A DNA stretch of 58,068 bases from Salsipaludibacter albus. GTDB lineage: Bacteria; Actinomycetota; Nitriliruptoria; Nitriliruptorales; Nitriliruptoraceae. The translations under genes and the position numbers were made by a program. The notes beneath the pieces are model-generated. The model searched no databases. It was not told the origin of the DNA and saw only the letters and a list, made by a program, of their open reading frames with translations. The DNA lies in the NCBI RefSeq assembly GCF_019798055.1, contig NZ_JAHOPH010000024.1, forward strand, positions 1 through 58,068. The letters are read 5' to 3'. This document shows, piece by piece, positions 36,641-44,942 of the stretch (position 1 is its first letter; each line of letters starts with the position of its first letter).

Positions 36641-37927
<1,287 letters not shown>

Positions 37928-38093: not shown

Positions 38094-38537
38094 TCAGTCC
38101 TCGAGCGCGCGGTCCCTGATGCGGCCCAGCAGCTCGGCCAGTTCGTCGGCCTCGCGCTCGTCGATGACCGACGACACGAGGTCCACGAGGTCCTGGCGGT
38201 GGGCGGGCACCGCCGCCTCGAGCGTGGCCAGCCCGTGGTCGGTGAGCACGGCGTTGATGCCGCGGGCGTCGCGGTCGCTGGCCTCGCGTCGGACCAGGTT
38301 CCCCTGCTCCATGCGGTCGACCAGGCGGGTCAGGCCGGACTTGCTCAACAGGACGCGCTGGGCGAGCTCCTGCATGCGCAGTCGGCGGTCGGGGGCCTCG
38401 GAGAGGTGGACCAGCACGTCGTAGAACGTCAGCGAGATCTCGCGGTCGCGGAACCGGTCGTCGAGCGCGACGAGGAGGCGGGCATGGGCCTCCAGCAGGG
38501 AGCGGAACGCCTGCAGGTGCGACGGCGACAGGGTCAT
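38094..38537 (-). CDS. MarR-family transcriptional regulator
   Basis: A 147-residue winged-helix regulator. The MarR pattern is clear: a leading helix, then ISLTFYDVLVHLSEAPDRRL, recognition region QRVLLSKSGLTRLVDRMEQ, and the wing NLVRREASDRDARGINAVLT. MarR proteins act as dimers and respond to small phenolic or oxidative signals. It lies 18 nt after the Nei-type glycosylase gene on the same strand and could be co-transcribed with it. The target genes are unknown; autoregulation or control of the neighbouring repair gene is only a possibility. Confidence 0.92.
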   Translation of the reverse strand: MTLSPSHLQAFRSLLEAHARLLVALDDRFRDREISLTFYDVLVHLSEAPDRRLRMQELAQRVLLSKSGLTRLVDRMEQGNLVRREASDRDARGINAVLTDHGLATLEAAVPAHRQDLVDLVSSVIDEREADELAELLGRIRDRALED

Positions 38538-38555
38538 CGGTACCTCCCGCTCGGG

Positions 38556-39350
38556 TCAGCGCGTCCGGGGTGGCTGGCAGGACGGGCACCAGGCGACGTG
38601 TCGCGCGTTGCCCCCCAGTGCGGTGGAGGCGAGGGGGGTGCCGCAGCGACGGCAGGTCCGGCCGTCTCGTCCGTACACCCACAGTTCGCCCGGTCGCGCC
38701 CCGGGGACGGTCGTCCGCCGGACCCGGTCGATGTTGGCGACCAGTTCCCGGCGGCCCCGAGCATAGACGTCGCGCAACTCGTCGTCGGTCAGCAGGTCGG
38801 TGGGCGTGCGGGGGTCGAGCCCGGCCACGTGGCAGGCCTCGACGGCCAGCACGTTGCCCAGGCCGGCCGCGACGGACTGGTCGAGGAGCGTGACGTGCAG
38901 CGGACGCACCGGGCGGTCCCGCAGCCGACGGACGACCGCGTCGAGGTCGACGTCGTCGGCCAGGTCCGGCCCGAGTCGTCCCAGGACACGGTGGCGCGTC
39001 TCGCGGCCCGGCTCCAGCAACTCGGCGACCGGGGCCTTCCGGCACGTCGCCCGTGCCTCGGACGTGGTCAGGGCGATGCGCACGTCCCGTCCCCGCGGGG
39101 GTCCCGGGGGTGCCGGGCGGGTGACGTCCCAGCGGCCGGGCATGCCGAGGTGCACGTGCAGGACGACCGGGTCCGCCTCGTCGGGGTCGAGGTCGACCAG
39201 CAGGTGCTTGCCGTGGACGCGAACACCACGCACCTCCACCGGGCTCGGTGCCGGCGTCACCAGTCGCGGCATCACCAGCTCGGCCCGGCGGCCCACCAGC
39301 ACGGGGCCCAGTCGCCGGGCGTGGCGGTGGATCGTGTCACCCTCCGGCAC
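38556..39350 (-). CDS. Fpg/Nei-family DNA glycosylase
   Basis: A 264-residue base-excision repair glycosylase of the endonuclease VIII (Nei) side of the Fpg/Nei family. It begins MPEGDTIHRHA, where P2 is the Schiff-base nucleophile and E3 the catalytic acid; MPEGDTI is typical of actinobacterial Nei proteins. The helix-two-turn-helix region contains DQSVAAGLGNVLAVEACH. The C-terminal zinc finger is CRRCGTPLASTALGGNARH with the second pair in WCPSC. These enzymes excise oxidised pyrimidines. It sits between a strong hairpin (39388-39424) and the MarR gene. Confidence 0.93.
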   Translation of the reverse strand: MPEGDTIHRHARRLGPVLVGRRAELVMPRLVTPAPSPVEVRGVRVHGKHLLVDLDPDEADPVVLHVHLGMPGRWDVTRPAPPGPPRGRDVRIALTTSEARATCRKAPVAELLEPGRETRHRVLGRLGPDLADDVDLDAVVRRLRDRPVRPLHVTLLDQSVAAGLGNVLAVEACHVAGLDPRTPTDLLTDDELRDVYARGRRELVANIDRVRRTTVPGARPGELWVYGRDGRTCRRCGTPLASTALGGNARHVAWCPSCQPPRTR

Positions 39351-39387
39351 GGATGGGCCTTCCTGGTCGGGCGAGGCGGCCTGGACG

Positions 39388-39424
39388 ACGACACCCCGGC
39401 GCCTTCAAGGCGCCGGGGTGTCGT
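39388..39424 (-). terminator. Strong hairpin terminator after the histone-like gene
   Basis: A perfect 16-bp stem (39388-39403 with 39409-39424) closes on the 5-nt loop TTCAA. It starts 15 nt after the stop codon of the histone-like gene on the minus strand and ends 37 nt before the Nei start codon. It should make the histone-like gene a separate transcription unit. It is the longest perfect terminator stem in the window. Confidence 0.88.
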
Positions 39425-39439
39425 GGATTCGGGTCCGAC

Positions 39440-39616
39440 CTACAGGTCGTAGGGACGCAGGGTGCTGCGTCCGTTCTCCTTGGCACGCTTGGCGCCGGCC
39501 TCGAGAAGCTCGTGGACCTTGGCGTTGAGCGCGTCCGGGACATCGGACGAGAGGCGAAGGTCGAGGCCCTTGACGGCTTCCTTGACCTTGCTGGTGACGA
39601 TCACGTTGTCTGCCAC
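39440..39616 (-). CDS. Small bacterial histone-fold protein
   Basis: A 58-residue protein starting at GTG, with AAAGGAA just upstream on the minus strand. It begins MADNVIVTSKVKEAVKGLDL and continues with a long helix SDVPDALNAKVHELLEAG, then KRAKENGRSTLRPYDL to the stop. This matches the layout of the histone-like protein Bd0055 of Bdellovibrio as I recall it (TSKVK opening, central helix, RKTVMARDI-type end). R50, T52 and D57 reproduce the R-x-T-x4-D pattern that forms the RD clamp of histone folds. The third helix is almost absent, since the protein stops one residue after D57. It probably dimerises and binds DNA as a nucleoid protein. It has its own leader and a strong terminator. Confidence 0.8.
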   Translation of the reverse strand: MADNVIVTSKVKEAVKGLDLRLSSDVPDALNAKVHELLEAGAKRAKENGRSTLRPYDL

Positions 39617-39646
39617 CGCGATTCCTTTCTCAGCGGTTGTCTGGGC

Positions 39647-39652
39647 AGACTA
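39647..39652 (-). promoter_or_regulatory. Candidate -10 element for the histone-like gene
   Basis: On the minus strand TAGTCT lies 30 nt before the GTG start, and the segment between holds the Shine-Dalgarno. It matches the TANNNT pattern seen before other genes in the window. I could not find a convincing -35 at 16-18 nt. Confidence 0.35.
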
Positions 39653-39774
39653 GGGGGTTCGTGGGGTCGTTTCGCGCACCAATGACCGTCCGATGGGGTC
39701 TTTCGGGGGCGTTCGGATGCTTGACGGGGGCGGTTGGGCCTCGTGACCGACGAATCGGTGGTCCCATCGAGGGC

Positions 39775-44393
<4,619 letters not shown>

Positions 44394-44397
<4 letters not shown>

Positions 44398-44942
44398 CGG
44401 ACCAGGGCCCAGTCGGGCAGGGGGCGACCGGGCTCGCGGCCGGTCCGCACCGAGGCGCTGCCCGACCCCACGTGCTCCTCCAGCCACGGGAGGTCGTCGT
44501 CGCCCGGACCGTCGAGGTGGTCCAGCAGGTCCGCGAGGCAGGCCGGGTAGACGTCCTCGCGGGCCGCGAGCACGGCGAGCTCGTCGGACGGCCACCATCT
44601 CCAGTCGTCCAGCGACTCGTGCTCGTAGTCCTCGAGGTGGTGCGCGACCAGGGCCGGGCGATCGCCGACCCCGGCGAGCCAGAACGACTCGACCTGCTCG
44701 GTCCAGCGGCCCAGGAAGGTGAACTCGGCGCGCCGGTGCAGGACCGCCGGTCCACGCAACGCCACGGCGATCCCGGTCTCCTCGTGGAGCTCGCGGACGG
44801 CGGCCTCGCGGGCGGTCTCGCCCGGCCCGGTCCCCCCGCCGGGCGTGAACCAGAAGCCCTCGTCGTCGACCCGCGCGTGGCACAGCAGCACGGCGCCGAC
44901 GTCGTCCCGCACGATCACGCGTCCGGCCCGACGCGAGATCAC
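44394..44942 (-). CDS. Nudix hydrolase
   Basis: A 182-residue Nudix enzyme. The Nudix box is complete (about residues 36-58: G36, E42, R50-E51-L52, E54-E55, G57), so magnesium-dependent hydrolysis of a nucleoside-diphosphate-linked substrate is expected. It follows the strand FWFTPGGG. The substrate cannot be read from the sequence. The GTG start is chosen because it overlaps the stop of the upstream membrane gene by 4 nt (GTGA), and its own stop overlaps the lhr start by 4 nt. This tight coupling to a DNA-damage helicase suggests nucleotide-pool or repair-related work, but this is inference. Confidence 0.88.

Follow-up and report, generated by a model that had tools for sequence, protein, structure and literature searches.

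In Leptospira a face-to-face (FtF) histone is present and HU is absent, and this histone, HLp, wraps ~60 bp of DNA (PMC12701072). Its tetramer interface is composed of R49, N53 and R55 together with C-terminal residues, and R55 and D62 constitute its RD clamp (PMC12701072). The published FtF profile is R-x3-N-x-R-x-T-x4-D; histones of the bacterial-dimer kind, such as Bd0055, are described as devoid of the first R and N (PMC11390915). In their main texts, the surveys assign bacterial FtF histones chiefly to other phyla and leave the Actinomycetota unnamed. The readable literature yielded no report on histones in Nitriliruptor or Actinobacteria, and individual Nitriliruptorales entries may be present in the supplementary tables of earlier surveys.

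Here we describe a small gene of the actinobacterium Salsipaludibacter albus, encoded on a contig of 58,068 nucleotides (the window), whose 58-residue product displays the same R-x3-N-x-R-x-T-x4-D pattern. An initial annotation had already proposed that a histone gene of actinobacterial origin was present at this position, and the origin proved to be right. The order concerned is apparently Nitriliruptorales, as the organism names in the matching records read Nitriliruptorales and Nitriliruptoraceae.

Results

The gene and its conservation

The coordinates of the gene, its flanking elements and its paralogues are collected in Table 1. The translation reads MADNVIVTSKVKEAVKGLDLRLSSDVPDALNAKVHELLEAGAKRAKENGRSTLRPYDL, followed by the stop codon. 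The gene is single-copy in the 4.25-Mb genome (97% complete), and a scan of all six frames of the window for R-x3-N-x-R-x-T-x4-D-x-stop gave this one occurrence. The interval is also open on the plus strand, but that reading is unrelated and unsupported and was rejected. Neither a relative on viral contigs nor an Rfam match within 38500-40500 was found.

Table 1. Features of the histone locus in the window and of the paralogous genes in related genomes.
Feature	Position or locus	Strand	Remarks
FtF alpha3-histone gene, 58 aa, GTG start	39440..39616	-	FtF/RD-clamp residues R44, N48, R50, T52, D57
Shine-Dalgarno AAAGGA, 6 nt before GTG	39623..39628	-	sequence; shared with sister MAG L002
Candidate -10 element TAGTCT, about 31 nt 5' of start codon	39647..39652	-	weak, putative; common to sister MAG L002
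17-bp perfect hairpin, terminator-like, no U-tract	39388..39424	-	sequence; most relatives have a similar hairpin
lhr, large helicase-related protein (Lhr), upstream neighbour	39775..44403	-	exact start uncertain
nei/fpg-type DNA glycosylase (Fapy_DNA_glyco + H2TH), next gene downstream	38556..39350	-	
MarR-family regulator	38094..38537	-	in conserved lhr-histone-nei-marR order
Citrate synthase	36641..37924	-	usual next gene of conserved block
Tailed paralogues	L146-L161		genomes G003, G004, G007, G009, G012, G015, G016, G017, G020, G024, G060, G061, G062
Tailed paralogue	L152		genome G025
125-residue tandem of two complete FtF folds	L051:1486-1866	-	G025:C15, near efp and nusB

Both strands have long open frames here, as would be expected if it were a chance ORF in high-GC DNA. 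Nevertheless, the probability of that reading is vanishingly small: it is refuted by a frame kept in dozens of genomes, in which synonymous changes are in excess and the functional residues invariant, and by a confidently predicted fold. The orthologous protein of the sister MAG is 91% identical, and synonymous differences between the two genes number 17.5, against 5.5 non-synonymous ones (dS 0.60, dN 0.04); as judged from the sequences, the gene is under purifying selection. The search for orthologues that had been suggested at the outset retrieved the frame, intact, from 14 further loci of named Actinomycetota MAGs (62-91% identity); the 13 besides that of the sister MAG (62-72% identical) contain neither stops nor frameshifts. 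The gene is real and separate and lies on the minus strand; the initial annotation had named no strand.

Sequence, fold and family assignment

Pfam connected the protein to DUF1931 (PF09123) only, at 21.6 bits and under the cut-off of 21.8, and NCBIfam gave no match. In fact, none of the single-fold Nitriliruptorales histones that were scanned reaches a Pfam threshold, a possible reason for their having escaped notice; the expectation that the gene would easily be overlooked was correct. A DUF1931 pseudodimer was rejected as its identity, considering the single fold, the length of 58 residues and the sub-threshold score.

A phmmer comparison with the PDB sequences ranked HLp (9qt0) first (E 8.2e-8, 41% identity), the archaeal HTkC (9f2c) second (E 8.7e-7, 42-45%) and Bd0055/HBb third (E 7e-4, 32-33%). 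The AlphaFold2 model (pLDDT 91.7) comprises helix 1 (residues 8-17), a short helix 2 (26-47) and a helix 3 of three residues (55-57). Foldseek, the check proposed in the initial annotation, placed HLp on top (TM 0.92-0.95, rmsd 0.7 A), followed by HTkC and then Bd0055/HBb; the order of VIA-align was identical, with HLp at 0.7-0.8 A over 56-57 residues, and the HBb structures deviate from the model by 1.0-1.6 A. The histone fold is thus confirmed, whereas the choice of Bd0055 as the proper relative has to be revised in favour of HLp and HTkC. It had also been pointed out that helix 3 is nearly missing. The protein does end one residue after the clamp aspartate, but this is the norm of the alpha3 family, whose defining trait is the reduced helix 3 (only 3-4 residues, next to a shortened helix 2), and not an oddity. 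A nucleosomal (HMf-type) histone was rejected, as helix 3 spans three residues instead of the about 10 that accompany a longer helix 2 in that class, and HMfA/B superpose at 1.5-1.6 A with 14-18% identity.

The alignment to HLp is gapless and equates R44, N48, R50, T52, D57 and L58 with R49, N53, R55, T57, D62 and F63 of HLp, whereas the helix-1 lysines K15, K17 and K21 of HLp map to K10, K12 and K16. All 29 aligned homologues carry R44, N48, R50, T52 and D57 without exception. The initial annotation had located R50, T52 and D57 correctly. K10 is kept in 28 of the 29, K12 is always K or R, and the three exposed helix-1 positions taken together are K or R in nearly all of them. The motif RxTxxxxD supplies both the RD clamp and the DNA-binding threonine, and the residues equivalent to HMM R48 and N52 are present as R44 and N48. 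By every testable feature the protein is an FtF alpha3 histone, and its membership of the family is well supported because the signature is complete, HLp and HTkC are the best matches in both sequence and fold, and the interface residues are invariant.

The shared TSKVK opening and RD clamp, the 32-33% identity and an rmsd of 1.0-1.6 A speak for a dimer like that of Bd0055/HBb, which bends DNA or coats it edge-on and forms no ring tetramer. We regard this reading as quite improbable, given that the residue pair R44/N48, which is described as missing in the bacterial dimers and is required for the FtF interface, is present and invariant here, and that the scores for sequence and fold favour HLp and HTkC over HBb.

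Leader, hairpin and gene neighbourhood

The good Shine-Dalgarno sequence that had been noted was recovered upstream of the GTG, and a scan for sigma-70 consensus promoters upstream of the gene called no match. The 16-bp terminator noted earlier corresponds to a hairpin that lies directly 3' of the gene, starting 15 nt past the stop codon, but that measures 17 bp, lacks a U-tract (the longest T run is 2) and was not called by a simple scan for rho-independent terminators, which yielded no U-tract terminator on the strand of the gene. As there is no U-tract, the hairpin resembles a terminator of the 'I-shaped' kind. Strong hairpins of differing sequence occupy the same place in the relatives (z below -2.4, ranging from -2.5 to -6.5, for 12 of the 14 genes tested; weak for the other 2), which suggests that the hairpin is a selected terminator of this kind.

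The end of lhr and the start of the histone gene are 158 bp apart. Opposite lhr, the plus strand of the window is open over 1459 codons (39637-44016), an artefact that is to be expected at very high GC. The order lhr-histone-nei-marR(-citrate synthase) is kept in most of the family. The class-mates G027 (L164/L117) and G040 (L118), which belong to two other families, have lhr and nei directly adjacent and devoid of the histone, which makes the lhr-nei arrangement older than the histone. Most simply, the histone gene entered an already existing lhr-nei pair, of which G027 and G040 preserve the apparent 'empty site'.

The conserved position between a helicase and a glycosylase gene could also be taken to mean that the protein is a histone-fold accessory factor of a DNA-repair locus, for instance a loader at DNA ends or sites of damage, and not a global chromatin protein. 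This strikes us as very improbable. Besides the greater age of the neighbourhood, the histone is retained at sites that do not adjoin lhr and nei (L003/L031, L045 and G025, the last belonging to family f2, where the histone genes are located elsewhere than lhr-nei), the gene as a rule comes with a leader and a hairpin of its own, and HU is missing from these genomes.

Distribution of the histone

FtF histones were found in 32 of the 36 genomes of the order, which comprise two families, versus none of the class's 30 remaining genomes. Sampled evenly, 396 Actinomycetota contained 18 positives, all of them within the order, and none among the about 358 genomes outside it. The four members of the order that gave no histone match (G013, G018, G057 and G021) are 61-88% complete and have no match to the Lhr C-terminus either; considering this incompleteness, the histone may equally well lie on a contig absent from the assembly as have been truly lost. 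The tailless Nitriliruptorales sequences group together in a tree based on 58 columns (81/87, weak), and this tree resolved no horizontal donor of the gene.

HU, IHF and Lsr2

The distribution of HU (PF00216) is the reverse of that of the histone. HU is present in 27 of the 30 class members outside the order, where the proteins count about 90 residues and are tailless, versus none of the 36 members of the order once a single match in G021 is set aside. That match (L110, G021:C218:810-1073) was rejected as probable contamination because of its GC content of 0.43 against about 0.74 for the locus of the present genome, in a high-GC MAG, and its neighbours of a low-GC type. Not one of the 66 genomes of the class has both HU and the histone (table 0/32/28/6), although a Fisher p-value provides no test of this exclusion, since it reflects essentially one phylogenetic event. 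Among the relatives searched, Lsr2 was found in 0 of 41 and the actinobacterial IHF in 35 of 41.

Outside the class, HU is present in 235 of about 357 Actinomycetota, and about a third of these genomes have neither a PF00216 match nor an FtF histone; hence, the loss of HU does not require a histone. Conversely, an FtF histone alone does not remove HU, as all 8 of the other bacterial genomes that carry the closest FtF histones (Myxococcota, Planctomycetota and Bdellovibrionota) have kept it.

Tailed and fused paralogues

Several relatives encode a second FtF histone with an N-terminal tail of roughly 45-85 residues that is dominated by K, A, T and S (e.g. MAPAKKAAAKKATAKKATAKK...). These Lys/Ala-rich tails resemble those of histone H1 and of mycobacterial HupB. 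G003 encodes three tailed paralogues, and the only, weak Pfam match of one tailed paralogue is to the H1-like HC2 of Chlamydia. The genome of Salsipaludibacter albus has the tailless form only. In G025 a tailed histone occurs besides a fusion of two folds, both of which keep R-x3-N-x-R-x-T-x4-D (DUF1931 score 2.9e-9). The fusion is possibly an FtF pseudodimer.

Discussion

We propose that the protein is a DNA-wrapping, tailless FtF nucleoid protein that replaced HU in this order, a reading to which we assign a probability of roughly three in four. The tetramer, the wrapping, a high abundance or expression and the taking over of the role of HU are all put forward by analogy with HLp. The protein would act as a general nucleoid protein that is not sequence-specific. 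As in HLp, two chains would pair head-to-tail via helix 2, and two dimers would close into a ring tetramer via two equivalent interfaces, where R44, N48 and R50 of one dimer would face C-terminal residues of the other. The ring would carry a wrap of roughly 60 bp of DNA, held by S9, K10, K12 and K16 of helix 1 together with the L1 and L2 loops (S24, S51 and T52), with R50 and D57 clamping loop 2. The histone would thus take the place of HU as general architectural protein, next to the actinobacterial IHF that is retained in most genomes.

Several observations weigh against this proposal. The absence of HU is clade-wide and may represent one evolutionary event, the net charge of about +0.6 (pI 8.1) is modest for a protein that packs DNA, and HLp residues T27 and G29 are replaced by L22 and S24. 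Moreover, the many other Actinomycetota that lack both proteins, together with the retained IHF, would also fit a scenario in which the gain of the histone and the loss of HU are unrelated, with IHF or another protein filling the role of HU and the histone being of minor importance. We consider such a scenario unlikely in view of the strict mutual exclusion within the class, the near-universal retention of the histone and the strong conservation of its sequence.

The replacement of HU by a DNA-wrapping histone may be part of a wider development. In this extension, which we put at somewhat less than even odds, the Nitriliruptorales, an order of Gram-positive bacteria, possess a histone-based nucleoid: an FtF histone that had entered the space between lhr and nei took over from HU as the general DNA-packing protein and diversified in several genera into a tailless core form, Lys-Ala-tailed forms like H1 and HupB, and a fusion of two folds. 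If true, the histone variants would resemble the division of labour between core and linker histones in eukaryotic chromatin. The tailed paralogues allow the contribution of a basic, H1-like tail to a histone to be tested in bacteria. As the family has closed genomes, cultured strains are probably available.

The FtF kind of histone was already known. What appears to be new, in relation to the readable literature, is the combination of an order-wide presence in the Actinomycetota, the absence of HU and the tailed variants. A configuration with a histone and without HU was previously described in Leptospira, and the Nitriliruptorales thus provide a second lineage in which to ask whether a histone substitutes for HU.

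Comparison with known histones

The protein shares with HLp of Leptospira perolatii (PDB 9QT0/9QT1/9QT2; PMC12701072) the fold (0.7 A), the tetramer residues, the RD clamp and the helix-1 lysines; HLp likewise ends one residue after its clamp aspartate, D62, and its host likewise lacks HU. The two differ in phylum, in sequence (41% identity), in the short N-terminal tail of HLp that is missing here, and in their neighbours, which are SMC and MAP for HLp versus lhr and nei for our gene. HTkC of the archaeon Thermococcus kodakarensis (PDB 9F2C; PMC11390915) has the tailless FtF fold, the RxT motif and the interface arginine in common with our protein, but its loop 1 is two residues longer, it has E at the position of N48 and it coexists with nucleosomal histones. 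Bd0055/HBb of Bdellovibrio (PDB 8FVX, 8CMP) shares the alpha3-truncated fold, the RD clamp and the TSKVK opening, whereas it is described without the FtF pair R48/N52, as a DNA-bending dimer in a host that keeps HU. The DUF1931 pseudodimers (Thermus TTHA1479 and Aquifex) are a distant family match (PF09123) and consist of two fused folds devoid of the DNA-binding residues, whereas the Salsipaludibacter protein has a single fold that stays under the Pfam cut-off.
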